IMG/VR virus record: IMGVR_UViG_3300023087_000127
Coordinates: 1 to 21,683 of that record
Strand: one strand, 5' to 3'
From: a virus
DNA length: 21,683 nucleotides
Shown here: in pieces, positions 1-21,036 of the stretch
Position numbering within the stretch: position 1 is the first letter of the stretch
Layout: every line of letters begins with the position of its first letter
Made by a program: the position numbers and the translations under genes
The notes under the pieces: model-generated
Database searches by the model: none
What the model saw: the letters and a program-made list of their open reading frames with translations, nothing else
What the model was told of the DNA's origin: nothing

Positions 1-96
1 CCAATCAGTTGGGTCGTTAAAACCTGCACTCATGCCTGTAATGGATTTAGTTAACGAAGTTCTAAACTTCGTAGGATCAAATGCTTTTGATGCCAT
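1..96 (-). CDS. 5' end of a probable RecA-like (UvsX-type) recombinase, cut by the window edge
   Basis: An open frame begins with ATG at 94-96, preceded by a good ribosome site (GGAGAT, about 8 bases upstream), and runs off the window after 32 codons. The visible N-terminus contains GMSAGFNDPTDW. This resembles the region just before the Walker A part of phage RecA/UvsX-type recombinases, where a phrase of the kind FxDPxxWIxTGNY is common. It is my recollection of the family, not an alignment. UvsX next to gp32 would make functional sense because the two cooperate in T4 recombination. The gene is separated from gp32 by a terminator, so it may rely on read-through or on a promoter not seen here. 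Confidence 0.45.
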   Translation of the reverse strand, partial: MASKAFDPTKFRTSLTKSITGMSAGFNDPTDW

Positions 97-111
97 GTTT
101 ATCTCCTATCT

Positions 112-139
112 AAAAAGCAAATGGGGGATTGCTCCCCCA
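112..139 (-). terminator. Intrinsic terminator downstream of gp32
   Basis: The minus strand carries a perfect 7-bp stem, TGGGGGA/TCCCCCA (122-128 with 133-139), around a 4-base loop, followed by TTTGCTTTTT. It lies 8 bases beyond the gp32 stop codon and before the next gene, where a rho-independent terminator is expected. Confidence 0.8.
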
Positions 140-146
140 CTAATTA

Positions 147-1136
147 TTACTGTCCTTGACGTGCTCTAATCATTGCTAGAATGTCTTGAGCGTTGCCACC
201 TTCTGCAGGAGCCGCTTCAGCCGCAGGTGCTGCTACTGGTGCTTCTTCTGCTACTGGAGCTGCTGGTGCAGCCTCAGGTGCTGGTGCCGCTGCTGGTGCA
301 GGAGTACTTGCTGCCGGTGTTGCTACCGGGTCGCCTGTACGCTGTGCCATACCTGCTGGACGGAAGTAGTTACCCCAACGATCCATATCAAATGCTTCAC
401 CGTCTACTGACGCTTCAAACATTTCTTGCATGACCTTAAGTTCTACTTCACCTGGCTTCTTAGGTAGGAAGTCTGCTAGATTAAACAAACCATGTGTGTT
501 AACTGCCTGCATCTCTGCATCGTTTAATGGACGCTCTCTACGTGCCCAATTAGATGTAGAATAATCTGCATATCCGCCTTTTGAAGTTTTGTTAAGACGG
601 AAGTCAACACCAGCAGTATAATCTGTTGGCAACTCTTCCATATCTGGATCCATAAGCGCCTGCTTAATGATTTGGAAGATTTGTGGACCAATGATAAATC
701 TACGGATTGGATTCTCCGGAGTCTCATCGTCACTTAGTGGGTTATCCACAACAAAGCCTTGGAAGATATATGAACGCTTTTTCCAATACTTACGACCCAT
801 ATCTTCTAGACTTGGATCTTTAAACCAACCGCGCACTTCGTTAAGAATGTTACACTGCTCGCCATACATTTCCATACATGGAATCTGTACTTGTACTGGA
901 CGTGAATCAGTTTGACCTTTGACGCCTGCAAATGGTAGTTTAATTACCAAACGCTCTTGCCAAAAGAAAGTGTTGTCTGCATTGCCATCAGGAAGGAAAC
1001 GTAGCGTTGCGCTATCGCCTTCTTTAATATTCCAAAATGGGTAAATGCTGTTATCACCACCGCCTGACTGACGGTTGCCTGAAGCGCCTGCTTCTTGTTC
1101 TTTGAGCTTTGCTCGGATTTCTGCTAATGATGCCAT
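147..1136 (-). CDS. 32: Single-stranded DNA-binding protein, T4 gp32 type
   Basis: The 329-residue product matches the gp32 architecture. It has a basic N-terminal segment (residues 1-20) of the kind used for cooperative self-interaction, then an OB-fold core (about 30-245) with many aromatic and basic residues, including YWKKRSYIFQGFVV around 116-130. The C-terminal tail (about 270-329) is rich in Ala, Pro and Glu and takes the place of the acidic tail that recruits replication partners in T4. T4 gp32 is 301 residues. The T4 zinc site (His64, Cys77, Cys87, Cys90) is not obvious here: only Cys87 and Cys95 are present in that area. The start has a strong ribosome site, TAGGAGG, 7 bases upstream. 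A sigma70-like promoter and a late-type motif lie upstream. In the cell it should coat ssDNA during replication, recombination and repair. Confidence 0.93.
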   Translation of the reverse strand: MASLAEIRAKLKEQEAGASGNRQSGGGDNSIYPFWNIKEGDSATLRFLPDGNADNTFFWQERLVIKLPFAGVKGQTDSRPVQVQIPCMEMYGEQCNILNEVRGWFKDPSLEDMGRKYWKKRSYIFQGFVVDNPLSDDETPENPIRRFIIGPQIFQIIKQALMDPDMEELPTDYTAGVDFRLNKTSKGGYADYSTSNWARRERPLNDAEMQAVNTHGLFNLADFLPKKPGEVELKVMQEMFEASVDGEAFDMDRWGNYFRPAGMAQRTGDPVATPAASTPAPAAAPAPEAAPAAPVAEEAPVAAPAAEAAPAEGGNAQDILAMIRARQGQ

Positions 1137-3004: not shown

Positions 3005-3012
3005 TATTTATC
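3005..3012 (-). promoter_or_regulatory. Late promoter motif GATAAATA overlapping the gp17 stop codon
   Basis: The minus strand reads TGATAAATACTAGTATG. The first TGA is the gp17 stop (3011-3013), GATAAATA is the late motif, and the ATG of the next gene follows 5 bases after it. By analogy with T4, where TATAAATA is centred near -10, the transcript would begin at or next to the A of the ATG. Confidence 0.7.
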
Positions 3013-4591
3013 AATAGTTGCTGCTAATGAAGATCGGCATTGGTGGTTCATAGTCTTCATCTTGTTCTGCTTGATTAAACGTATTATACACTCTAGGATC
3101 CCAATCTTTTAGTACTTCCATCATTCTTATTGCAAGAATGCTGGCCATAATTAAATCATCTGTTGCTCCACTTTTTGCTTGATACGAGCTACCTGTTGCT
3201 ACAAATGTTTTTAGTTCGCTTACTAAGGGTTTACTCTTAATAGTCATTTTGTCGTTTTCAATCATAGTTTTTAAACGACTACAGGCTGTAATTTTAGTGC
3301 TATGTGTAGTATTAAATCCTTTACGGAATTTTCTTACGTGTCCTTTTCTAATAGGTTCAGACACAAAAAGTCCAGGAATATTTTCTTCCCCAAAATCGTT
3401 TATAACGATTAGGCATGCTTCTCCAATGCCGTTGTTCTCTACACTCCAATACACATTATTTGGTGACTTAGTTTGATCTGCTATGTATTTGCATATATCA
3501 GATAAAATTCTCACCTGTCCCGGTATGCCTGTTTGATTGTGTTGCCATTCTGCTACCTGTTCGTATGTAGGTAATTCGTAAACCTGAATAGCAGCATAGT
3601 CACCACCTGTACCCATACTAGGGTCAAGTGCTACAGCATATGTATACTGACTGGTTGGCTTTTTATACCAACGTGTTTGTCCCATATTAAGTAACGGAGT
3701 AACACCTTCCATGCCAGCAAGTTTAATTGAGTTAATTAGTGTTTCATCAAATACTAAGAACTCACAGCCGTATTCACGACGGAACTTTTCTTCGCCAATA
3801 CGCCCAATCTCTGCTTCTTTCCACTCTTCATCGCGATCTGGATGTTCTTGCCATTCTGCTCTAAATGCATGGAAACCGTTTATACCTACTTCTTGTTCGT
3901 TGCCGTGTTCGTCAAACTTTTGCTCTGCTTGTTTCCAAATAGTAGCAAATGTGTCTTCGTCTGAGTTTGGTGTTGATGTAATAATAGCACGACCACCTGT
4001 TGCTAGTGTAGGTGAAATAGAAGTCCAAAATTCTTCTGCAATGTTGGGCATAACAAACGCAAACTCGTCACAGTATAGTAGTGAGATAGACATACCACGT
4101 CCTGTGTTGCCTGTTGTTGTTTGACTTACAATCCTTGAACCATTCTCAAACTCTATGCTACCTTTGTTATAACTAGTAACACCTGCTCTAATATGATCTG
4201 GACAAGTTTCATAAACATAGCGTATACGTGCCATAATTTCCTGCGCACCTGTGTATTTGTGTGCTGCAATTAGAATAGTTTGATCTGGATTAAACATTGC
4301 ATACCAAGCAAGATAGATAGCAGCACAGGTAGTTTTACCTGTTTGTCTAGGCATCATATTAATATTAAATCTATAACTATGATAACTGTGCAACAAACGA
4401 AGTTGATATTCATAAGGATCAAACATAAGTTTGCCTTGCACAGGGTGCTGTATGTAAGCAAAATGCCTTGCAAAATGCAAGTACCCCTCATTAGGATCCA
4501 TACATGATAACAAGTCTTCAACTTGTTCATTTGTAAATGTTTCTTTTTGATTTGCTTTTTTTGTTAATACACCGTCTAAACTTTTACTCAT
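3011..4591 (-). CDS. 17: Terminase large subunit, T4 gp17 type (packaging ATPase and nuclease)
   Basis: The 526-residue product has the full set of large-terminase motifs. In the ATPase domain, Walker A is PRQTGKTT (81-88), Walker B is LLYCDEF (171-177, Asp175 then catalytic Glu176) and the coupling motif is TSTPN (205-209). In the RNase H-like nuclease domain the acidic residues lie in ALDPS (Asp323), VENNG (Glu385) and the later TDDLIMA segment. It pumps DNA into proheads and cuts the concatemer, with the small subunit encoded upstream. T4 gp17 is 610 residues, so this is a shorter member. The start is the ATG at 4589-4591. A TTG five codons upstream lies in the T-tract of a terminator and is rejected. 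No Shine-Dalgarno is visible, and a TAAATA motif lies 4 bases before the ATG. Confidence 0.96.
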   Translation of the reverse strand: MSKSLDGVLTKKANQKETFTNEQVEDLLSCMDPNEGYLHFARHFAYIQHPVQGKLMFDPYEYQLRLLHSYHSYRFNINMMPRQTGKTTCAAIYLAWYAMFNPDQTILIAAHKYTGAQEIMARIRYVYETCPDHIRAGVTSYNKGSIEFENGSRIVSQTTTGNTGRGMSISLLYCDEFAFVMPNIAEEFWTSISPTLATGGRAIITSTPNSDEDTFATIWKQAEQKFDEHGNEQEVGINGFHAFRAEWQEHPDRDEEWKEAEIGRIGEEKFRREYGCEFLVFDETLINSIKLAGMEGVTPLLNMGQTRWYKKPTSQYTYAVALDPSMGTGGDYAAIQVYELPTYEQVAEWQHNQTGIPGQVRILSDICKYIADQTKSPNNVYWSVENNGIGEACLIVINDFGEENIPGLFVSEPIRKGHVRKFRKGFNTTHSTKITACSRLKTMIENDKMTIKSKPLVSELKTFVATGSSYQAKSGATDDLIMASILAIRMMEVLKDWDPRVYNTFNQAEQDEDYEPPMPIFISSNY

Positions 4592-4595
4592 ACAG

Positions 4596-4604
4596 TATTT
4601 AACC
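4596..4604 (-). promoter_or_regulatory. Late promoter motif GGTTAAATA before gp17
   Basis: The minus strand reads GGTTAAATACTGTATG, with TAAATA at 4596-4601 and the gp17 ATG 4 bases later. It follows a strong terminator directly, so gp17 seems to be a separately promoted unit. The predicted mRNA start is within a base or two of the ATG. Confidence 0.65.
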
Positions 4605-4630
4605 AAAAAAATAGCGCCCTAAGGCGCTAT
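4605..4630 (-). terminator. Intrinsic terminator between the PG-binding protein gene and gp17
   Basis: A perfect 8-bp stem ATAGCGCC/GGCGCTAT (4611-4618 with 4623-4630) around a 4-base loop is followed on the minus strand by seven T residues. It is a textbook rho-independent terminator, 19 bases after the stop of the upstream gene. Confidence 0.92.
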
Positions 4631-10387: not shown

Positions 10388-13300
10388 TTAAAGACCTGCG
10401 ATCTCTCCTGTGTTTTTGATACGTAGCGGAATGTAAATAAATTCTACTGCTTTTACTGGTTCAATAGCAATATCTACATACAACTCATTTCTGTCAATTC
10501 TAGCAGGAGTGTTGTTTGTTTCATCACACACAACTAAGAAGTCAAACAATGCTCTAAGTCCTACAAGTTCCACTAGTAAACTTTCAACTTGTTGTTTAAT
10601 TTCATCACGTGTGATTTTATCATTTGGCTCAAACAAATATGGTTTTGCAAGTGTGTTAAGTTGTGATCTTAAATATACAACTAATCTTGCAACATTTATT
10701 CTGTCTAATGCACTAGCATTTGCTGCTCGAGTTTTCTGTCCAAATACAACAAGCCCTGCTCCTGTTAGGAATGTGATTGGGTTAACGTTGTTTGAGTACA
10801 GTGTATCTCTTACACCTTCGTTTAATGCTGCCGGAACAAATTCGCCTTCACTGTTAATATAACCTGTTGAAGTTGCGTTTGTTACACCGCCGCGTCTTGT
10901 ACCTGCTGGAGCAAACCAAGGATAAGCAACTTGGTCATTAAGTGCAAATGTGCGTAATACCATATGTGATGCTGGAACAACAATATTGTTTCCTGCATTG
11001 TCACTGCTAAATCCGCTTGGATAATATACACCTAAGTATTCATCTCTACTTACTAGACCAGTATCGTTATCTTCTACTGCTGCATTTACGTTAGTTGCCC
11101 ATTCGTTAAGTGAAGTTGCATCATGTGTCAAACGCATTGGAGAATCACCTATAACAAATGCTGACAAACCTCTGTCATAGTTTAGTGTAATCATTTCACC
11201 AATTAGCTCTGGATAACCTGGTGATGCAATCAAGTTAAAGATACGTGATTCGTCATCACGGATATCTTGATTATCATTTACTAATGCTTGTAACGCTTGT
11301 ATTACAACTTTACGCTGTGCTTTACGTCCAAAGCTACCCGAGCCGTCTGCTTCGTTAGCTGATTCTGTTACCCAACGGTGTGGATAGTATCCTGCCATTG
11401 ATTCGTCACTTGCACGAGCGTTTGTAGCAGAAATGTCAATGTAGTTACGCACAAATTTCTTTACATTAAATCCACTTCTACGTGTGTTCCAAAGCAACAT
11501 ACCTTTTGGATATAATGCTGGATCTGGAGCATCTGGATCTAAGTAACCGCTTGTTAACAAGTCACTAATGTCACCAGCTTCATCGCTGTTTGCACCTGCT
11601 GTGTTGTAACGTGCATCTGCAAAAATAACACCGTTTTCTGTTGTTTGGTCAGTTGTATCTAATTCTGTCCAAGATGCTAATGTTTGATTGTAACGATAAA
11701 TTTGTGGGAAGTTTTCTAAGTCTGCTGTGCTTACCCAAAGATCGCCTGTTACAAGTGGTGAACCATCTGATTGTTCGTTAGGCTCAGTTGCACTTACAAT
11801 AGGTCCTTCTGGACTTGATGAAGCGTACTCGGTTTGATAACCTACCCACGAACTACCATCGTGTACCATAATATCAATTTCATCTACAACACTGCTGTAC
11901 CATAGAGCACCGTCTGCTGCTAATGCAGTTGGTGCGCTTGCACTTGCTGTGTATGTCAATTCTTTCCAAAGTGTAGCAATATACTCATTTGCTCCGCCTG
12001 TTGGTGAATCATAAAAGTTTGCTGTACCAGAATTTGCAGTGTAATCCCAAGCATCAAATGCTGATCCTAGTTTTGTATTTGTATCTACAAATCTAATTTC
12101 GCCTCCAAGTGCGTGTGTGATTACAACTTTGTTTCCTGTAGCTACACTTGCAGTTACATTTGCAAGACCTGCTGCGTTGATACCTGCTGCTAATAAATCA
12201 GCATCGCCAACTGCACCTGTTGGTGTAAAGCTAACTGTTACAGGTGTACTCATTGCTGCGCTGCCTTTTACACTTTCACTGATTGTAAAATCGCCTGCAC
12301 TTGCTGTAAATGTGGTTGCTGTAATAGCAGCACTTGTAATTGTTGTTGCACCTGCTGCATTACGCTTGAAGATTGTAAAATCTGCTAGGTTAGTTGCTGC
12401 TTCTGTAGTGTTTGTTTGTACGTAAACATCTGCTGTTGTTAAACCTAAACCACCGCCAGCTTGGTCCATATTATAGATTGCTGCGTGATTTGAATCATAA
12501 ATTGGAGCACTTGTTGTATCCCAAAGTCCTGTATCACTGTTCCACGCTTTTACACTCCAGTTTGCACCTACGTTCGGAGTTGTTGTTTTAATCCATATAC
12601 TACCTGTTGGTCTTGGGTTTGTATCACCTGATTTGTAAAGAGGTACACTTGTATGAGCAGAGGCCTGTAGTTTAGGAGCATAGTAGTTTGTGCCTGCTGT
12701 CAATCCTGCAACAGTTAATACTGTTCCAGTACCTGCAATTTGGAAACCATCGTGTGAACTACCGTCATTGAAAATTACAATGCGTGAATCAACAACATTT
12801 GCTGTAATACCTGAGCCACTTGCTGCTGTGTTAAAATCAGCTGCTAATTGTGCTGGAGTATTTCCTGTTAAAGCAAATGTAAAGATTTGTGTTGCACCGT
12901 CGGTTTGATTAATAGTGATATTGTCTCCTGGTGTAAACGGAGTTGCGGTAAGTGACTCTGTACCTGTCACACTTGCCCAACTTTCTTTCCAGTCTGCACT
13001 TCCTACTACTACCCAAGTACCTACTGTAATACCTGCTGCTGCGTTACCTGGTGATTTGTAATATATTGTTGGCACAGTTGTTAATGCAACAATTGCATAA
13101 TCGCCAATAGAACCTACTGATCCTTTTGGTGTGTAATCGCCACCGCTGTAATCTACAACTTGTGTTGAATCAGTAATTACAGTAGGAACTTTGTTTGTAA
13201 AACTTTGTCCTGTGGTATTTGATGTTGAAACTGTACTACCGTCCCATTCAAAAATACCATATCTACTGTTTGCAGTATCTAACCAATATGTTCCGTCTGC

Positions 13301-13690
13301 TGGATTTGCTGTTGTTGCAGTTGAACTTGCAGTTAAAGCACCTAAGTCTACATCTGCACGAACAACATATGCTCTATTGCTAACACCCAAATATGAGTAT
13401 GCAGCCTGCAATCCATATTCGTTTTGTTCTCCGCCATGGATTGGATTGTTATTATTATCTACATAAAATGTTGGATCACCGAATGTATCTACAAGTTCAC
13501 GCTGTGAAGTTAGTAGGTATGGTTTTCCAGCATTTGCTTTTGTGGTACCTGGAGCTGTTCCTGTTCCTGCACCATTTAGTTTATTTTCGCTTGTTGCGAC
13601 AAATATAATAGGTACTGTGCCTGGTTCTGCCGGAGTGTAAAAACTCTCGTCAATAACGCTGACCTCTACACCTGGTGATGTTAATGCCAT
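10388..13690 (-). CDS. 18: Contractile tail sheath protein, T4 gp18 type, with large inserted modules
   Basis: The 1100-residue product keeps the sheath core at both ends. The N-terminus has SPGVEVSVIDES (5-16), TVPIIFVATSE and VDTFGDP, and a segment SNRAYVVRAD (104-113). The C-terminal half (about 725-1100) holds the polymerisation and handshake parts, including FLVVCDETNN, DRNELYVDIAIEPVK and FIYIPLRI. T4 gp18 is 659 residues, so about 440 extra residues sit between roughly 118 and 690. That insertion is made of recurrent Gly/Thr/Ala-rich modules: Trp/Asp-Gly units near 132-151, 361-391, 592-620 and 648-678, and two longer beta-type modules near 244-330 and 455-545. They probably decorate the outside of the sheath. 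A ribosome site (AGGAG) and a CTAAATA motif precede the gene. Confidence 0.95.
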   Translation of the reverse strand: MALTSPGVEVSVIDESFYTPAEPGTVPIIFVATSENKLNGAGTGTAPGTTKANAGKPYLLTSQRELVDTFGDPTFYVDNNNNPIHGGEQNEYGLQAAYSYLGVSNRAYVVRADVDLGALTASSTATTANPADGTYWLDTANSRYGIFEWDGSTVSTSNTTGQSFTNKVPTVITDSTQVVDYSGGDYTPKGSVGSIGDYAIVALTTVPTIYYKSPGNAAAGITVGTWVVVGSADWKESWASVTGTESLTATPFTPGDNITINQTDGATQIFTFALTGNTPAQLAADFNTAASGSGITANVVDSRIVIFNDGSSHDGFQIAGTGTVLTVAGLTAGTNYYAPKLQASAHTSVPLYKSGDTNPRPTGSIWIKTTTPNVGANWSVKAWNSDTGLWDTTSAPIYDSNHAAIYNMDQAGGGLGLTTADVYVQTNTTEAATNLADFTIFKRNAAGATTITSAAITATTFTASAGDFTISESVKGSAAMSTPVTVSFTPTGAVGDADLLAAGINAAGLANVTASVATGNKVVITHALGGEIRFVDTNTKLGSAFDAWDYTANSGTANFYDSPTGGANEYIATLWKELTYTASASAPTALAADGALWYSSVVDEIDIMVHDGSSWVGYQTEYASSSPEGPIVSATEPNEQSDGSPLVTGDLWVSTADLENFPQIYRYNQTLASWTELDTTDQTTENGVIFADARYNTAGANSDEAGDISDLLTSGYLDPDAPDPALYPKGMLLWNTRRSGFNVKKFVRNYIDISATNARASDESMAGYYPHRWVTESANEADGSGSFGRKAQRKVVIQALQALVNDNQDIRDDESRIFNLIASPGYPELIGEMITLNYDRGLSAFVIGDSPMRLTHDATSLNEWATNVNAAVEDNDTGLVSRDEYLGVYYPSGFSSDNAGNNIVVPASHMVLRTFALNDQVAYPWFAPAGTRRGGVTNATSTGYINSEGEFVPAALNEGVRDTLYSNNVNPITFLTGAGLVVFGQKTRAANASALDRINVARLVVYLRSQLNTLAKPYLFEPNDKITRDEIKQQVESLLVELVGLRALFDFLVVCDETNNTPARIDRNELYVDIAIEPVKAVEFIYIPLRIKNTGEIAGL

Positions 13691-13960: not shown

Positions 13961-14275
13961 CTATTCACGTTTGTTCCTTAGTCCGCAGTAAATATCATGC
14001 TCATTAAAGATAGCTCTGCCTAATGTAGCAGCATCACGTTTGTTCATGTCGCTTATAGCATTATACCATTCAGTCCTATGATTGTGTCTATCAGCATAGC
14101 ACTGTTCTTCAGTATCATAGTTGTACTTCTTTTTTAACAAATCATAAATGAAAAGTTTTGAACAGAAAGCACTGCTGCTTTCAAAACTATATCCGTACTT
14201 GTCTCTAAGTATTTCGCAGACAGTATCTTTACCGTGTCTGCCGTGACCGATTACCAACAGTTTCTTTTTATTCAT
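13961..14275 (-). CDS. Deoxynucleotide monophosphate kinase, N-terminal part (T4 gp1-like), ending at an amber codon
   Basis: The 104-residue product begins MNKKKLLVIGHGRHGKDT, with a P-loop GHGRHGKDT (10-18, Lys16). A middle region (SSSAFCSKLF; HRTEWYNAI) suggests nucleotide and deoxynucleoside monophosphate binding as in T4 gp1 and cyanophage dNMP kinases. These enzymes phosphorylate dNMPs to feed DNA synthesis. The frame stops at TAG (13961-13963) after GLRNKRE, where the family normally continues straight on; the missing part is found in frame immediately downstream. With the amber read through, the protein would be 168 residues. A sigma70-like promoter overlaps the gp13 stop, consistent with early expression. 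No Shine-Dalgarno is visible and the predicted transcript start is at the ATG. Confidence 0.75.
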   Translation of the reverse strand: MNKKKLLVIGHGRHGKDTVCEILRDKYGYSFESSSAFCSKLFIYDLLKKKYNYDTEEQCYADRHNHRTEWYNAISDMNKRDAATLGRAIFNEHDIYCGLRNKRE

Positions 14276-15110: not shown

Positions 15111-16271
15111 ATGCCAAGACTAAGTTTATATAGACCAGAAAGATCACATGACTATGATTTCTTAGACAAAATGATCTATGAACAATTTACTGTTGGCGGT
15201 ACTGATCTTTTGATTCACAAGTACTTAGGGCCAAAAAATCCGTCCGATGACAACACAACATTTGAACAAAAGCAATATACAGAAGCAAGCGAAACTAACA
15301 TTCAAGATCTTTTGTTTTTAGAAAACCGCGATAGAAAATATGACGAAGACATTTATGTCGTAAGGGCACATTACAATGTGCAAGATCAAGACTTTGATTT
15401 AAGTCAGTTTGGTTTGTTTTTACAAAACGATACATTGTTTATGACAATGCATATTAATAGCAGTGTAAAAACAATTGGCAGAAAGATTATGCCTGGTGAT
15501 GTTTTTGAATTACCACACTTGATTGATGAGTATGCAGCTAACGATTACAGTGTTGCGTTGAAAAGATTTTATGTTGTTGATGAAGTAACTAGAGCAGCAG
15601 AAGGATTTAGTCAAACTTGGTATCCGCATTTATATAGAGTAAGATGTAAACAGATACTTGATTCACAAGAATACAAAGATATACTTGAGGCAAGTGCAGA
15701 GGATGAAGATAATCCAAATCTAAAACTAAGAGATGTATTAAGTACATACGAAAAAGAAATGCAAATAAACGATGCTGTAATTGCACAAGCAGAAGAATAT
15801 GCAAACCAAAGTGGTTATAGCACTATCCAGTTTTATACGCTGAGTGTTGACGACAAAGGCGAAATGGCAATTGTTAGTGCAGACTACAACGATCTGCTTG
15901 TTGACGGTACAATTGGTGCTGACACTATTTTTGTTACACCAGATGGAAATGGTTATCAAGGTTACTTAGTTGGAGACGGTATTCCGCCAAACGGTTATCC
16001 TTATGGACAAGGTACAGGATTTCCTACTGTAATAAATGAAGGTGATTATTTTTTGAGAACAGATTTATCTCCTAACAGATTATTTAGATATGACGGCAAT
16101 AGCTGGAGAAAAATTGAAGATAATGTTAGAACAGAAATTACACCAACAGATACAAGAGATACTCTAAAAGGCACATTTATCAACAACACAACAGTAAATA
16201 CCATTGGTGGTGAAGAAGTGCAAGAAAGACAAGCACTTAGTAAAGCACTTAGAGCAAAGGCAACTGACTAA
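15111..16271 (+). CDS. 14: Probable neck protein, T4 gp14-position homologue
   Basis: The preferred start is the ATG at 15111 (386 residues, MPRLSLYRPERS). Earlier in-frame starts (TTG 15087, ATG 15105) lie within the promoter palindrome. The central part has LTMHINSS, then IGRKIMPGDVFELPHLIDEY and a YPHLYRVRCKQI segment. The 'motif-GD-x-hydrophobic-P' strand layout resembles T4 gp14 (KEPKEGDLIYFP). Position between gp13 and a gp15-like gene also fits gp14. T4 gp14 is 256 residues; the extra C-terminal part (about 225-386) includes a module EGDYFLRTDLSPNRLFRYDG...SWRK (about 310-336), like those in the sheath. I recall homologues in marine phages labelled neck or structural protein. It overlaps gp15 by TAATG. 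Confidence 0.65.
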   Translation: MPRLSLYRPERSHDYDFLDKMIYEQFTVGGTDLLIHKYLGPKNPSDDNTTFEQKQYTEASETNIQDLLFLENRDRKYDEDIYVVRAHYNVQDQDFDLSQFGLFLQNDTLFMTMHINSSVKTIGRKIMPGDVFELPHLIDEYAANDYSVALKRFYVVDEVTRAAEGFSQTWYPHLYRVRCKQILDSQEYKDILEASAEDEDNPNLKLRDVLSTYEKEMQINDAVIAQAEEYANQSGYSTIQFYTLSVDDKGEMAIVSADYNDLLVDGTIGADTIFVTPDGNGYQGYLVGDGIPPNGYPYGQGTGFPTVINEGDYFLRTDLSPNRLFRYDGNSWRKIEDNVRTEITPTDTRDTLKGTFINNTTVNTIGGEEVQERQALSKALRAKATD

Positions 16272-17974
16272 TGCAATTTTTTTATGATGGACAAATCCGT
16301 AGATATCTAACACAAATTGTTAGAGCTTTTAGCAATTTTAGTTATCAAGACGGTGACGGTGATCTAAGACGTGTGCCAGTTATGTATGGAGATATAACAA
16401 GGCAAGTTGGAAGTATCATAAGAGAAAACTCAGAAAACAAATTGCCAAGTGCTCCTCGTATGGGTATATACATTACTAGCTTGCAAATGGACAGAGCTAG
16501 GTTAAGTGATAGCAGTTATATAAGTAAAATAAATTTACGTGAAAAAGAATTTGATGAAAATACTAGTAGTTACTTAAGAAGCCAAGCCAAAGGATACACA
16601 GTTGAAAGACTGCATCCTACTCCATATACACTAGCTATAAATGTTGATTTATGGAGTACTAGCACTGATCAAAAGTTACAAATACTAGAACAAATTTTTA
16701 TGTTGTTTAATCCAGACTTAGAATTCCAAACAACAGATAATTATGTTGATTGGACTAGTTTAAGTACTTTGTATTTAGAAGATATAAACTTTAGCAGCAG
16801 AAGTATTCCTGTTGGAACCAACGACGAAATTGATGTTGCAACAATTGGTTTTACTGCTCCAATTTATATTTCACCGCCTACTAAAGTTAAAAAACTTGGT
16901 ATTATTACAGATATTATTACAAGTATTTTTAATCAAGATCAAGGTACAATAAGTTTAGAAGGATTTAATCCACCAACAGATAGCGATCAAGGTGCATCAA
17001 GCGGAACAACTGTTTTAGCAGATGGCACAATAATTGATAATCAAAGTGGTGTAACCAGCACTCAAGCTGTAGGATTAGGAGGCAGACTAGATTTATCAAA
17101 TCCTGTGATATCAAGTTATAGAAATTTTGATTTGATTGTACAACAAGAAACAGGTAAACTTGCAATTAATAAAGAATTACGTGTAGGCGAAATTACGTGG
17201 TTAAACGTTTTAGAAGCAGAACTGCCAGCAAAATTCCAACCAGGTATTAGTCAAATTAGAATACGTAGAGCAGAACTACAATCAGAAATTGTAGGTACAT
17301 TATCATTAACAGAAGGCGACCATTTTACAATAAACATTGACTGGGACGAAGATACATTACCTAGCAACACTCTTATTACTGGTCCGACAAAAACAGATGG
17401 TACAATTAATTATATTGTAAATCCAATCGAATTTAATCCATTAAGTGTAAAACAATCAGGAACACGCATATTGTTGTTAGGTCCATTGGGCTTTCGTGTA
17501 GATAGAACGTTTACTGCAACTTATAGTGATGATAAAATATATACCGACATAGATTATTTTATTCAAAACAGCAGTTTTGAATCAAGAATAGGTTCGGAAA
17601 CAGTAAGTAGTTTTGATGTGTATGTTAACGGTGCTGTTGTTGCTGCAACAGGTTCTAACGACAACGATAAGTTCTTAATTACATTAGATGTTCCTTTAGT
17701 AGCAGGAGATGTTGTACAATATGTTCTAACACTAAACGAAGACGGAGCAGAAGCTTGGAAGAACGCAGATGCTAGTGATTTTGCAGCAGATAAAAATGAC
17801 ATTGTAGAATGGGATGGTAGTAATTGGCATATTATTTGGGATGCAAGTGCTGACGAAACCACAACATATGTTACAAATGTTACAAACGGTCAACAGTATT
17901 ATTGGAACAATTATTATTGGCAAACTGCTATAGATGGATATTATCCAAGAGGAACTTGGACAATAACTTTATAA
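16271..17974 (+). CDS. 15: Tail completion / sheath stabiliser protein, T4 gp15 type, with C-terminal extension
   Basis: The 567-residue product begins MQFFYDGQIRRYLTQI. This parallels T4 gp15 (YFYNSSFRRY), followed by RRVPVMYGD like T4 RVPITYAS. Residues about 112-175 (HPTPYTLAINVDLW, then ILEQIFMLFNPDLEF) match T4 NPSPIKMIYELSIF and IVEQILPYFQPHF. In T4, gp15 caps the tail and sheath before joining the neck. T4 gp15 is 272 residues, so about 300 residues are added. They comprise a Gly/Ser-rich linker (about 230-270), a beta-rich region, and a Trp-rich end (about 495-567) with VEWDGSNWHIIWD, recalling the sheath modules. Its start overlaps the gp14 stop. Confidence 0.85.
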   Translation: MQFFYDGQIRRYLTQIVRAFSNFSYQDGDGDLRRVPVMYGDITRQVGSIIRENSENKLPSAPRMGIYITSLQMDRARLSDSSYISKINLREKEFDENTSSYLRSQAKGYTVERLHPTPYTLAINVDLWSTSTDQKLQILEQIFMLFNPDLEFQTTDNYVDWTSLSTLYLEDINFSSRSIPVGTNDEIDVATIGFTAPIYISPPTKVKKLGIITDIITSIFNQDQGTISLEGFNPPTDSDQGASSGTTVLADGTIIDNQSGVTSTQAVGLGGRLDLSNPVISSYRNFDLIVQQETGKLAINKELRVGEITWLNVLEAELPAKFQPGISQIRIRRAELQSEIVGTLSLTEGDHFTINIDWDEDTLPSNTLITGPTKTDGTINYIVNPIEFNPLSVKQSGTRILLLGPLGFRVDRTFTATYSDDKIYTDIDYFIQNSSFESRIGSETVSSFDVYVNGAVVAATGSNDNDKFLITLDVPLVAGDVVQYVLTLNEDGAEAWKNADASDFAADKNDIVEWDGSNWHIIWDASADETTTYVTNVTNGQQYYWNNYYWQTAIDGYYPRGTWTITL

Positions 17975-17987
17975 AATAACTATTTGT

Positions 17988-18422
17988 ATGAATCAAATAA
18001 TTTGTAGTGGTGCTTTGTTTTATAGTTTGCAAACGCACAGATTTTTATTATTACATAGAGCAAAAAGTAAATCTAAAAATGTTTGGGGTCTTGTAGGTGG
18101 TACAAACGAAGGTTATGAAACACCCTGGGAAGGTCTAAAAAGAGAAATACAAGAAGAAATTGGCAGTGTACCAGAAATTAAAAAAACAATCCCATTAGAA
18201 ACATTTATTAGCAGTGACGAACATTTTCATTTTCACACTTATTTGTGTGTCGTTGAAAAAGAATTTTTACCAAAACTAAACGACGAACATGATGGATATT
18301 CATGGGTAAAATTTGGTTCATGGCCTAAACCCTTGCACAACGGACTATCAAACACTTTACGTAGTAAATATAATCAAAATAAACTAGAAACTATTATCCA
18401 GCTTGTTGATATAATTTCTTAA
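17988..18422 (+). CDS. Nudix hydrolase
   Basis: The 144-residue product contains a perfect Nudix box Gx5Ex7REUxEExG from Gly38 to Gly59 (GTNEGYE, then TPWEGLK, then REIQEEIG), with catalytic/metal Glu residues 53, 56 and 57. The fold around it fits (LLLHRAKSKSKNVWGLVGG before the box). Such enzymes cleave nucleoside diphosphates linked to another group; the substrate here is unknown. Phage members may clean nucleotide pools or act on RNA caps. It follows gp15 by 13 bases. A TATAAAATA stretch over the gp15 stop could be a weak late-type promoter. There is no clear Shine-Dalgarno. Its last 29 bases overlap the end of the convergent gene. Confidence 0.9.
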   Translation: MNQIICSGALFYSLQTHRFLLLHRAKSKSKNVWGLVGGTNEGYETPWEGLKREIQEEIGSVPEIKKTIPLETFISSDEHFHFHTYLCVVEKEFLPKLNDEHDGYSWVKFGSWPKPLHNGLSNTLRSKYNQNKLETIIQLVDIIS

Positions 18423-21036
18423 ACTCATCTTTCAACCAATTAAAATCATTGAGTTTTGCTAGTTCTACTGGATTATCTTTGTGCTCTTCGCCAAAGTTTT
18501 TACCTGCTATAGCACCAGCAATTGCTGCTTTACCAAATGGTTTATCATCGCCTTTACTGCACCAGGCATCTAATCTAAATTCTGTCTCGTCGTCTTTTTG
18601 TCTTGCAATAGTACGACTTGCAAGTTTTGCACATTCTCTAAATCCACTGCGCCAAGCACTAAACGAGTCTGTGTTAAATGCAGTAGTATTGCTCATTTCA
18701 TCAATGCCTTTGAACTTATCACTAATGCTAGTTGTCATATCTGTAGTAGATTCGTCTAAGTTCCTTGTTAAAGCAGTAGGCAATAATTTTACACCGCCGT
18801 AACCATATACAAGTCCATTAATAGGATTATAACTTCTCCATACGTGTACAGTTTCTTTACCATCTATATCATATGCAGGAACATAAAAGTCAAAATCAAA
18901 TCCGTCAATTATTTCAGCATCTCCATCTACTACCCAAAACATTTCCGTTTCTGCTAGTTCTGCTGCACGTTTGTGAGCAGCATGAATGCCTTTAATATCC
19001 ATTACACGTTTTGCTCTAGGAAATTTTTCGCTCAGTGAATTAAAGTTGTCATCAGCATTTGGTTCTCCATTACTAATAAAAACAATATCATAAGGTTTAG
19101 GACGACTGCCTACCTCTGGATATTCTTTTTTAGTAACAAAAAATCTATAATCAATTTCACGTTGACTAATGTTTAATTTTTTACTAGTTAATGAAATACC
19201 ATCATAAAATTCTCCGTTTTTCCAAACGTGATTAATTTTGCGTTCATATTGATTATGATGACTTATATAAAAATCCCAATTAAAATTATCTACAGGTAAA
19301 AAACTATCATTTACCATCCAGAACATATCAAAATTACAATCTTTTTTTGCTCGTAAATAATCTTGATAATCATTCACTGTGTAAATTGGATATTGCTTAG
19401 GATTACTTGCAACAATTTCGTGTTCTTTTTTCTTAATTAAAAATCTATGTTCTATTTCTTTTTCACTTACTAAAACATTTTTACTGAATAAAACAATACC
19501 ATCGTATGTGTCATTGTTTAAAAATACGTGATTGATATTTCTATCATAAGTGTTGTGATGATCAAAATATAGATCAAAAGCAAAATCTTCACACACTTCT
19601 ACATCATCTGGTATACCCCAAAACATTTCCGACTCACAATTATATAATGCTTCGGTGTAGTCTTCATATGAATTGATTACAAATTGTTGGAATTTTTTTG
19701 GTGTACTAGCAACAATATTGTGTTCTTTTTTGTTTACATAAAATCTATGATCAAATTCTTTTTCACTTATTTCAGACCTTGCACACATTAATGCAATGCC
19801 GTCATACGAATCTTCATTTAGGAAAACGTGATTTGTTTTCATATCAAAAGACTCTTGATCGTGAAAATATTTGTCCCATTCAAATTCTTCATTTACATCA
19901 ACATCGCTTGGTATTAACCAGAACATATCACTGCCGCAACTTGCTATTGCACTTTTGTATTGTTCATATGTATCAATATTAAAACGTTCAAAATCTTTTG
20001 GTACACTTGCAACTTCTTCATGATCAATCTTGTGTTCTAATTCTCTAAAAATAATTTCTTTTTCTGTCACAGGTGAGTTTTTACTAAACAAAAAGACACC
20101 ATTGTATTTGTTTCCATTTAACCAAGCGTGATTGCTTTTTCTATCTGAGCTATGATGGCTAATATAATAATCAAATTTAAAATCTTCATTGATAATAATT
20201 TGATTGCTATATCCCCAAAATAAATGCGTTGTTGATTTTTGTAATGCAGATTGATAATCGTAATAATCATTAATTTCAAAACAATCATATGGTCTAGGAT
20301 TACTTGCCATAATCCTTACTTCTTTTTTATCAATTAAGAATCTATGTTTTAATTCCCTTTCAGAAATATCATAATTTTTTGGTAGCAACATAACACCATC
20401 TAATTGATCAATGTCCCCGTTGCCAAAAACGTGTGGTGTATCATAACTCCATTCATCGGGTTTATAACTAAATTTAAATGTATCTCTTACAACAGTATCA
20501 TCGTAAACAATCCAAAACATATCAGTAAAACTTTGTTCTCTAGCTTGTTCAACCGTGTCTACAGATTGTACTTTGAATCCTCTTTCGATTAGATTATTGT
20601 GTACAGTTTTATCTTCTCCAATGTAAAAGATATCAAATTTTTCTTGCCCTTTATAAGGGCTGTAATGTCCAGCAATATATTTTTCTTCTATTTCAATAAA
20701 ATTATTCCAATGTGCATCTCTGCTTACTAAACGAACCAAATCATAGCTTTTTACTTCTCTACTTTTTTCAAATACATAAGGAAATTTAAACGTTGCTAAT
20801 TGATTAGGCATATAATACCAAGGAAAACTTGGATATATTTCTATACCTTTTTTTATTAGCCAAACATATTTTGTGGTAATTTCATTTTCTTTTTCTTTTA
20901 AGATAGAATAGTCAGTAGGATCATCAACATAAAAAACATTCCACTTAGGCAAAAAATGATTTTTTAAACTGTCTTGTCCAGGAAACAAACCTGGGGTTGA
21001 TTTTAATTTATCGAATTTTGAAAATGCTGTTTTCAT
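18394..21036 (-). CDS. Large tandem-repeat glycosyltransferase-like protein
   Basis: The 880-residue product has five successive units of almost exactly 100 residues. Each has an (L/M)FW strand (at about 173, 273, 372, 472 and 572), followed by degenerate Asp-containing turns, an EDFxFDxYxxHH-like segment, an NHVF segment (about 302, 402, 502, 602), a YDGIxLFSK segment, an (E)xEHRFxxxKKE segment and a closing ASxPK. A further N-terminal degenerate unit (57-130) shows a KYVWLIKKG/PYVF pattern. A final, longer unit (647-760) has EMFWVVDGDAEI, where DGDA resembles the DxD of GT-A glycosyltransferases. The C-terminal 100 residues (about 790-880) form a separate helical domain. It is translationally coupled (ATGA) to a GT-like gene upstream. 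Glycan transfer is inferred from the last unit and the neighbour; the repeat units may bind rather than catalyse. Confidence 0.82.
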   Translation of the reverse strand: MKTAFSKFDKLKSTPGLFPGQDSLKNHFLPKWNVFYVDDPTDYSILKEKENEITTKYVWLIKKGIEIYPSFPWYYMPNQLATFKFPYVFEKSREVKSYDLVRLVSRDAHWNNFIEIEEKYIAGHYSPYKGQEKFDIFYIGEDKTVHNNLIERGFKVQSVDTVEQAREQSFTDMFWIVYDDTVVRDTFKFSYKPDEWSYDTPHVFGNGDIDQLDGVMLLPKNYDISERELKHRFLIDKKEVRIMASNPRPYDCFEINDYYDYQSALQKSTTHLFWGYSNQIIINEDFKFDYYISHHSSDRKSNHAWLNGNKYNGVFLFSKNSPVTEKEIIFRELEHKIDHEEVASVPKDFERFNIDTYEQYKSAIASCGSDMFWLIPSDVDVNEEFEWDKYFHDQESFDMKTNHVFLNEDSYDGIALMCARSEISEKEFDHRFYVNKKEHNIVASTPKKFQQFVINSYEDYTEALYNCESEMFWGIPDDVEVCEDFAFDLYFDHHNTYDRNINHVFLNNDTYDGIVLFSKNVLVSEKEIEHRFLIKKKEHEIVASNPKQYPIYTVNDYQDYLRAKKDCNFDMFWMVNDSFLPVDNFNWDFYISHHNQYERKINHVWKNGEFYDGISLTSKKLNISQREIDYRFFVTKKEYPEVGSRPKPYDIVFISNGEPNADDNFNSLSEKFPRAKRVMDIKGIHAAHKRAAELAETEMFWVVDGDAEIIDGFDFDFYVPAYDIDGKETVHVWRSYNPINGLVYGYGGVKLLPTALTRNLDESTTDMTTSISDKFKGIDEMSNTTAFNTDSFSAWRSGFRECAKLASRTIARQKDDETEFRLDAWCSKGDDKPFGKAAIAGAIAGKNFGEEHKDNPVELAKLNDFNWLKDEFKKLYQQAG
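19099..20298 (-). repeat. Tandem array of ~300-bp coding repeats (100-residue units) in the GT-like gene
   Basis: Between Pro247 and residue 646 of the encoded protein, four units repeat with a spacing of 99-100 residues. They are anchored by Pro247, Pro346, Pro446, Pro546 and Pro646 and by the FW residues. A further, more divergent unit precedes them. The repeats are clear in protein but diverged in DNA, so the duplication is not recent. Confidence 0.8.

Follow-up and report, generated by a model that had tools for sequence, protein, structure and literature searches.

An array of apparently non-catalytic GT-A-like units preceding a putative glycosyltransferase domain in an uncultivated large phage

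Why would a virus encode a long protein in which a glycosyltransferase-like unit is repeated in tandem, with an intact metal motif in the last copy alone? An earlier note on this locus had claimed even repeats of about 100 residues, serially copied from a GT-A-like half-domain, and proposed self-comparison and structure prediction as checks. In the window analyzed here, which is the whole stretch of 21,683 nucleotides, the array gene occupies the minus strand, and the plus strand has stops throughout (Table 1). Self-comparison of the encoded protein gave a top ungapped diagonal of 656 at offset 100, followed by 360 at offset 200 and 216 at offset 299, compared to a maximum of 49 over 30 shuffles, which rules out chance repetition. 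A unit HMM trained on four units of the window's protein identified five full repeats of ~100 residues (termed beads; E 3e-22 to 8e-53), and also partly matched the C-terminal domain (C domain, E 1e-9). The even tandem repeats were thereby borne out, and the MFW/LFW strands begin at residues 173, 272, 371, 471, 571 and 699, each within one residue of the MFW positions read previously. The array gene is no assembly accident because a 99.9-100% identical protein is present in four further contigs (L002-L005), which excludes an assembly artefact as its source; repeat collapse is also unlikely, as the window's units share only 29-52% identity with one another.

Table 1. Coordinates of the array gene, its parts and the adjacent genes in the window
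Feature	Position	Residues	Strand	Basis
Array glycosyltransferase-like gene, 880 aa (N-cap, five pseudo-GT-A units, catalytic-type C domain)	18394..21036		-	ORF, repeats, AF2 model
U0, very degenerate N-terminal unit, weak	20713..20934	35-108	-	Unit HMM E 0.016
U1, longer strand-helix-strand start, triplet YDD	20284..20646	131-251	-	HMM match 154-251, E 3e-22; model
U2, triplet SNQ	19987..20283	252-350	-	HMM, alignment, model
U3, triplet PSD	19687..19986	351-450	-	HMM, alignment, full and two-unit models
U4, triplet PDD	19387..19686	451-550	-	HMM, alignment, full and two-unit models
U5, triplet NDS	19093..19386	551-648	-	HMM, alignment, model
C-terminal GT-A-like domain	18397..19092	649-880	-	VIA-align, conservation
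DxD, Asp704-Gly-Asp706	18919..18927	704-706	-	DxD in 102/102 distinct C domains
Small glycosyltransferase-like gene, 194 aa	21033..21617		-	Stop/start overlap with array gene, 4 bases
NUDIX hydrolase gene, convergent, end overlaps end of array gene	17988..18422		+	Pfam NUDIX E 1.9e-16
T4 gp15-like tail sheath stabiliser gene (context)	16271..17974		+	Pfam T4-gp15_tss E 2.4e-18

The full-length AF2 model, computed from 70 chosen rows of the 157 distinct C-bearing ORFs, has a mean pLDDT of 88.2 and a pTM of 0.58, so the mutual arrangement of the beads is unreliable. For a two-unit model of U3-U4, the alignment contained 84 pairs chosen from 343, together with the window's own pair; this model reached a pLDDT of 93.8 and a pTM of 0.86. 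The order of strands and helices is the same in every unit of both models. Comparison with the PDB aligned 90-101 residues to GT-A domains, the first unit in the two-unit model scoring Z 4.8-6.8 and the second Z 4.9-5.1, which are middling values. Each unit has matches of the same superfamily, and one further match spans both units with an rmsd of 13; a Foldseek search of the PDB with this model returned nothing under E 0.001 (best E 0.026). As the alignment runs end to end over 90-101 of ~100 residues, the modelled bead represents a complete GT-A core, reduced in size, and not half a domain.

The C domain adopts a Rossmann-like GT-A fold in the AF2 model, and superimposes onto B4GALNT1 with Z 11.3 and an rmsd of 2.7 over 139 aligned residues (VIA-align). 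Among the 50 matches listed are the peptide S-glycosyltransferases ThuS and SunS, SpsA and the PBCV-1 capsid glycosyltransferase; judged by their titles, the matches listed are GT-A enzymes or related nucleotidyltransferases. IspD/MobA-type nucleotidyltransferases score just below the glycosyltransferases, so that another NDP-sugar or nucleotidyl chemistry is still compatible with the fold. The DGD of this domain is the sole DxD of the window's protein, as had been noticed before, and the 102 C domains that share a DxD are distinct and come from closed ORFs, with 5'-open ORFs and the split gene L032 left out. Across 27 five-unit sequences (window included), 96 of 232 columns are invariant, with a mean consensus of 0.82, placing the C domain among the most conserved parts of the protein. 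In the sequence alignment, an invariant YGYG at residues 744-747 is a candidate G-loop, and candidates for the catalytic base are Glu801, which is invariant, and Glu817, which is nearly so; toward the C terminus, the 70-row alignment has no conserved His. A G-loop, an xED catalytic base and a C-terminal His are among the GT-A elements given in a section of PMC8233153. Both catalysis by the C domain and its use of a donor sugar are presumed.

At the position aligned with the DxD, the first Asp is gone from all of the window's units and the second remains in U1, U3 and U4. The triplets previously read at this place hold for units 1, 2 and 5, whereas those for units 3 and 4 were off by about one residue. 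No DxD occurs in 310 units, taken from the complete set of 157 ORFs as matches outside the C domain with E < 1e-4 and over 80 profile positions; the first Asp is retained in 0/310 of them and the last in 202/310. From the missing first Asp we infer that the beads have lost catalysis. The beads have conserved residues of their own, with Glu in 125/125, His in 122/125, and Gly and Leu each in 124/125 cluster representatives. Comparison of the unit and C-domain profiles by HHalign gave a probability of 97.3 (E 2.6e-11, spanning 62 columns), indicating that the bead and the C domain are homologous. The models, the alignments and this homology agree with serial copying of a GT-A-like unit, and the predicted structure has tandem similar folds with a metal site in the C-terminal one alone. 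On this picture, an enzyme domain gone dead has apparently been turned into a module that can be used repeatedly.

Array relatives are numerous among uncultivated viruses, with a bead number (n) from 0 to 16. Beadless C-domain genes are represented by 25 distinct closed ORFs, not counting L032, the C part of the split gene. When proteins of different n are compared, the first unit pairs best with the first, the penultimate with the penultimate and the last with the last, and the middle units vary in number; L042, which possesses seven full units and one remnant, differs from L038 by 69 residues in frame. The beads are under purifying selection, with dN/dS of 0.02-0.11, similar to that of the C domain (11 pairs, overall dS < 0.8); they must therefore do something, although selection leaves unspecified what that is.

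Family membership was assigned above the curated cut-off for Pfam and NCBIfam, and at E < 0.001 for PHROG. The array protein matches no PHROG or NCBIfam entry, and its best Pfam hit, DUF3627 (E 0.097), is under the cut-off. In L156 and L200, the C-domain and paralogue genes likewise have no family match above cut-off, the best hit among them being that of the L200 paralogue to PF10111 Glyco_tranf_2_2 (E 0.0027, under cut-off). The C, paralogue and unit profiles had no PDB sequence match below E 0.1, and no array relative turned up among records of cultured phages or in curated families. A match to Caulobacter phage Cr30 (E 5) did not hold up: with the threshold relaxed to E 10, the C profile still hit none of the L048 ORFs of 60 aa or more. 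Titles and abstract openings of the open-licence literature yielded no account of such a bead array. The array marks out a widespread family of virus proteins that has no name.

The overlapping small glycosyltransferase gene matches PHROG 1574 (unknown function, E 2e-25), PHROG 12406 (glycosyltransferase, E 4e-5) and Pfam Anp1 (E 9.5e-5, under its cut-off). Its DSD and GED motifs are invariant in 12/12 aligned sequences, the window's included, which agrees with the earlier note's view of a coupled small enzyme with an intact DSD. Used as a negative control, its profile gave HHalign probabilities of 0.2 and 0.7 against the array, that is, no detectable homology, which rules out a recent common origin of the two. 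The small gene adjoins the array gene in 51/51 loci (n ≥ 5, 650 upstream bases present), and a NUDIX homologue is found in 56/56 loci (n ≥ 5, 400 downstream bases present). Upstream of the bead-rich genes lie the small glycosyltransferase and, in loci where one was visible, a tail fibre capped by S74 (Peptidase_S74, E 1.7e-13). This upstream fibre of the relatives is very long and Ser/Thr-rich, with 20-24% Ser plus Thr, a content that is ordinary for tail fibres. Its frames measure 3577-3637 aa at n = 5 (four phages), 3796 aa at n of about 7 and 3943 aa at n = 16; a matching of fibre length to bead number was rejected, as there is no scaling. None of 20 loci with n = 0 has a fibre match nearby, and the three few-bead loci that were scanned (n of 0, 0 and 1) have radical SAM/SPASM, epimerase/dehydratase, and weak GT8 and GDSL neighbours.

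The best explanation, to which we give an even chance, is a virion-directed modular glycosyltransferase with one C-terminal GT-A catalytic part and a non-catalytic glycosyltransferase-like array for binding or spacing. The C domain with its DxD would be the catalytic part, and the beads, lacking the first metal-binding Asp, would bind or space the acceptor or the growing glycan and present the acceptor to the C-terminal site; we hypothesize that they may serve as a binding scaffold. Together with the co-translated small glycosyltransferase, the array protein would most likely decorate a virion protein, with the long S74-capped fibre of the relatives as the first candidate target. More tentatively, up to 16 pseudo-GT-A beads may form a multivalent holder, such that the single terminal active site works along a long fibre or glycan and the bead number is tuned between phages; we regard this extension as rather doubtful. 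The unscaled fibre length, the lack of a fibre match near beadless relatives and the middling fold scores of the units count against the virion-directed enzyme.

The location of the array gene between the tail fibre and tail genes in relatives would also suit a virion or adhesin-like binder, with lectin-like beads that recognize glycans of the host surface or of the phage, and a C domain that is mainly a binder. Bead number varies among phages as in modular adhesins, and a test of glycosyltransferases engineered to bind glycans is reported in PMC12274613. However, the high conservation of the C domain and its universal DxD are expected of an enzyme, and the C domain also occurs in beadless genes, so we consider such a binder unlikely.

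We consider it equally improbable that the target lies outside the virion, for instance in the bases of DNA or in a polysaccharide of the host surface, a polymer that the beads would hold. Phage glycosyltransferases that glucosylate DNA or alter host serotype are known (described in part of PMC12619734), and the few-bead relatives reside in sugar/radical SAM clusters of viruses and one Bdellovibrionia MAG contig; the bead-rich clade, in contrast, occurs with the small glycosyltransferase, NUDIX and tail genes, and no base-modification gene was recognized in the short flanking stretches scanned. Distinctly unlikely is a third reading, which takes the beads for passive spacers or for evolutionary debris that binds no ligand. 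The middle beads do come and go, including the in-frame L042/L038 difference, but in close pairs dN/dS is equally low for the beads and the C domain, and the unit-specific polar residues are nearly invariant, so the beads are not debris; they may still be purely structural spacers.

Among known systems, ThuS is both the best match of the bead (Z 6.8) and the fourth-ranked match of the C domain (Z 10.5). SunS/ThuS and SpsA share the GT-A fold at 5-13% identity in those matches, and to our knowledge they have no bead array. The PBCV-1 capsid glycosyltransferase (2p72, 2p6w and 2p73) is, like the C domain, a viral GT-A protein (Z 9.1-9.3) and is tied to a virion protein, but its chains have ~200 residues, and searching PDB sequences by profile did not recover it. 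Human B3GLCT (GT31) resembles the array protein in having two related GT-A modules per chain, of which the C-terminal alone is catalytic; its N-terminal module has a degenerate DxD and an unknown function, as stated in a section of PMC8233153. The likeness is one of architecture alone; B3GLCT is a eukaryotic ER enzyme with one non-catalytic module, compared to 5-16 trimmed ones in the phage array. In that precedent the dead domain is a single partner of the active copy, whereas the natural series of 0-16 dead copies beside one intact domain lets the function of a dead glycosyltransferase be asked directly. The autotransporter heptosyltransferase TibC/BAHT hyperglycosylates a protein as a multivalent assembly, which part of PMC4358343 describes as a dodecamer of active subunits, in contrast to dead domains within one chain. 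If the phage array does act on tail fibres, tail-fibre glycosylation in large phages would bear on host recognition. The predicted structures of two uncharacterized proteins of uncultured Caudovirales phage, A0A6J5LK21 and A0A6J5L5L5, match the full model (E 3.4e-36 and 4.3e-33) and the two-unit model (E 4.6e-7 and 1.0e-5) at 11-16% identity; both proteins are probably arrays of the same kind.

P0001, the 880-residue product of the array gene, comprises an N-cap, five units of about 100 residues (termed beads) and a C-terminal GT-A-like domain (the C domain) with a DxD motif. The tandem units of about 100 residues claimed in the earlier note are borne out by self-comparison, with diagonals of 656 at offset 100 and 360 at offset 200, where none of 30 shuffles scored above 49. 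They are also borne out by an HMM built from four window units, which detects five strong copies, a further weak copy close to the N-terminal end and, as a partial match, the C domain. Profile comparison of 85 unit pairs against 14 C domains revealed that bead and C domain are homologous (probability 97.3, E 2.6e-11, 62 columns); the small glycosyltransferase-like ORF coupled to the array gene (small GT), a control with a DxD-like motif, gave probabilities of 0.2 against the C domain and 0.7 against the units.

The full AlphaFold2 model (70 sequences; mean pLDDT 88.2, pTM 0.58) has a strand and helix order common to all units, and a two-unit model (85 sequences) reached a pLDDT of 93.8 and a pTM of 0.86. 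Residues 645-824 of the full model match GT-A enzymes, topped by B4GALNT1 (Z 11.3) with an RMSD of 2.7 over 139 aligned residues; other matches are ThuS, SunS, SpsA and a PBCV-1 capsid glycosyltransferase, together with related nucleotidyltransferases, IspD and MobA among them. Plain Foldseek search of the two-unit model against the PDB gave no match under E 0.001. Single beads of this model align end to end with GT-A domains over 90-101 residues, at middling Z-scores of 4.8-6.8, and the predicted bead is therefore best described as a trimmed GT-A core. Thus the earlier proposal of GT-A-like repeats stands on the common strand/helix order and the GT-A matches, whereas its half-domain part does not fit the end-to-end alignment.

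The DxD is present in all C domains (102/102), whereas none of 310 units has the first Asp or both, and 202 have the last, in agreement with the metal motif claimed for the last unit only; these units were gathered by an HMM seeded with window units, under which a fully C-like unit would count as C. Among 125 cluster representatives of beads, one Glu is invariant (125/125), and a His (122), a Gly (124), a Leu (124) and a Ser (120) are nearly so. In the 11 closest of 16 pairs (overall dS <0.8), dN/dS is 0.02-0.11 for beads and likewise 0.02-0.11 for the C domain; the remaining five, partly saturated, reach 0.32 and 0.12, respectively, and the N-cap is under weaker constraint (up to 0.53). Judging from these sequences, the beads are not decaying, because several of their residues are near-invariant and their dN/dS in close pairs is low. 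The invariant Glu at unit-profile position 76, with Arg and Lys nearby, is without obvious counterpart in the C domain and is perhaps a bead-bead contact or a ligand site.

In viral contigs, all 46 pattern matches obtained with the full protein were confirmed as relatives, the C domain was confirmed in 310 of 341 matched stretches, and a broader C profile gave at least 596 (596/600 among the matches listed), with the best 80 kept per search and matched stretches not being separate viruses in every case. Of 10 stretches matched in genome contigs, two proved to be relatives, and both of these lie in Bdellovibrionia MAGs. Among 50,697 phage records, from which those very near the window are possibly absent, P0001 had no match at E 1e-5, and neither the 293-residue paralogue of L156 (a second DxD protein in a few-bead or beadless locus) nor the Bdellovibrionia C domain had any at E 1; a C-domain query at E 10 returned only five matches, all at E 5-6. 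P0001 hits no significant family in Pfam, PHROG or NCBIfam; in BFVD, two long uncharacterised proteins of uncultured Caudovirales have a similar predicted structure.

Bead number (n) varies among 102 distinct ORFs that are closed at the 5' end and have a strong C domain, one split gene being dropped: n=0 in 25, 1 in 6, 2 in 5, 3 in 8, 4 in 2, 5 in 47, 7 in 1, 8 in 5, 9 in 2 and 10 in 1. One further phage encodes 16 beads in a complete protein of 2013 aa. Two n=1 cases, on contigs L186 and G019 (which contains L173), have more beads in a separate adjoining ORF; at L186:3362-5672, the array is split over two genes, the first with four beads and no full C domain, the next with one bead and the C domain. 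On the tree of 79 C domains, bead number must have changed 16 times or more (theoretical minimum 10). One clade (95/82) holds all n≥5 members and five of six n=3 rows, and the n=0 members lie on one side of a weakly supported branch (70/92); the tree is midpoint-rooted, and rooting and support do not fix which bead state came first. When proteins of n=3, 5 and 8 are compared, beads in first, penultimate and last place, like the C domain, find their best match at the corresponding position, and the middle beads are without clear partners. The proteins of contigs L043 and L038 differ by a single inserted stretch of 104 residues. That of L042 (n=8 in the census) has units identical to those of L038, save that one bead is mostly deleted, 69 of its residues being absent in frame. 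At L032:5938-8621 (the same contig as L089), the frame is broken between last bead and C domain, which could be a sequencing error. Two five-bead relatives with 1116-aa frames (L154:3297-6644 and L141:3291-6638) bear an extra C-terminal extension of ~220 aa, which in L154 hits the Pfam SCP-2 sterol transfer family (E 2.9e-8), unusual company for a glycosyltransferase.

Features of the window around and beyond the array gene
Feature	Coordinates	Strand	Remark
Array gene, 880-codon ORF	18394-21036	minus	ORF finding
Small GT ORF, 194 aa	21033-21617		its stop overlaps the array gene's start
NUDIX gene	17988-18422		convergent; its end overlaps the array gene's end
Terminase ORF	3011-4606		called by its matches
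Tail sheath	10388-13690	minus	1100 aa
Short kinase-like gene	13961-14275	minus	P-loop by eye

At n≥5, the small GT adjoins the array gene in 51/51 loci with 650 upstream bases, and homologues of NUDIX and gp15 occur in 56/56 loci with 400 and 54/54 with 1200 downstream bases, respectively. The small GT is adjacent in 4/7 loci at n=3 and in 0/35 at n=0, 1, 2 and 4 together. Further upstream comes a gene of 126 aa, followed by a tail fibre, which ends in a Peptidase_S74 chaperone (one example scanned); the window's own fibre would fall past the right edge and is visible in the near-identical contig L005. Where 1800 upstream bases are available, 38 of the 42 loci with n=3 or n≥5 have a homologue of the fibre (n=3 3/5, n=5 30/31, n=8 4/4, n=9 1/1, n=10 0/1), and none of the 32 with fewer beads or n=4 has one (n=0 0/20, n=1 0/6, n=2 0/4, n=4 0/2). 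Six complete fibre frames span 3577-3943 aa, with 20-22% Ser+Thr (for the longest, from part of the frame). Some few-bead and beadless relatives are adjoined by a ~295-aa paralogue, also with DxD (22/42 loci of n 0-4 with 650 upstream bases), and neighbours in three such loci (L156, L174, L186) include radical SAM/SPASM, epimerase/GDP-mannose dehydratase-like, weak GT8 and GDSL genes. Both Bdellovibrionia contigs (L200, L201) carry a beadless C domain paired with the paralogue; L200 resembles the few-bead clusters of viruses in that radical SAM/SPASM genes accompany the pair. The L200 locus is flanked by MoxR-type ATPase, DUF58 and S49 peptidase genes and therefore looks chromosomal.

We propose that the C domain most likely transfers sugar and that the beads most likely hold or space the acceptor, for which the tail fibre would be the first candidate. 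Fibre length and the number of beads do not vary together, and this speaks against the array being a simple length ruler. GT-A enzymes are already known, as are GT partners that lack catalysis. The nearest precedent we met is human B3GLCT, which has two GT-A modules, of which one is catalytic and the other is not (PMC8233153), and differs from the array protein in its single non-catalytic module. TibC shows that multivalency can serve hyperglycosylation (PMC4358343), and glycans are carried by capsid and tail tube subunits of mycobacteriophages, according to PMC12619734. No description of a protein series in which a single intact domain carries from 0 to 16 trimmed GT-A beads lacking the metal site was found in the open-licence literature searched.

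The window, a virus record of 21,683 bases, also contains tail and packaging genes, among them sheath, tube, gp15, head-tail adaptor and head closure. The best matches of its terminase, at 52.8% identity, are in PA5oct-type jumbo phages. The sheath is longer than the profile nearest to it, PHROG 10581, which has 915 positions; PHROG 23, the general profile for sheaths, has only 496. The kinase-like gene is cut early by a stop codon in the window and stays open in near-identical contigs.
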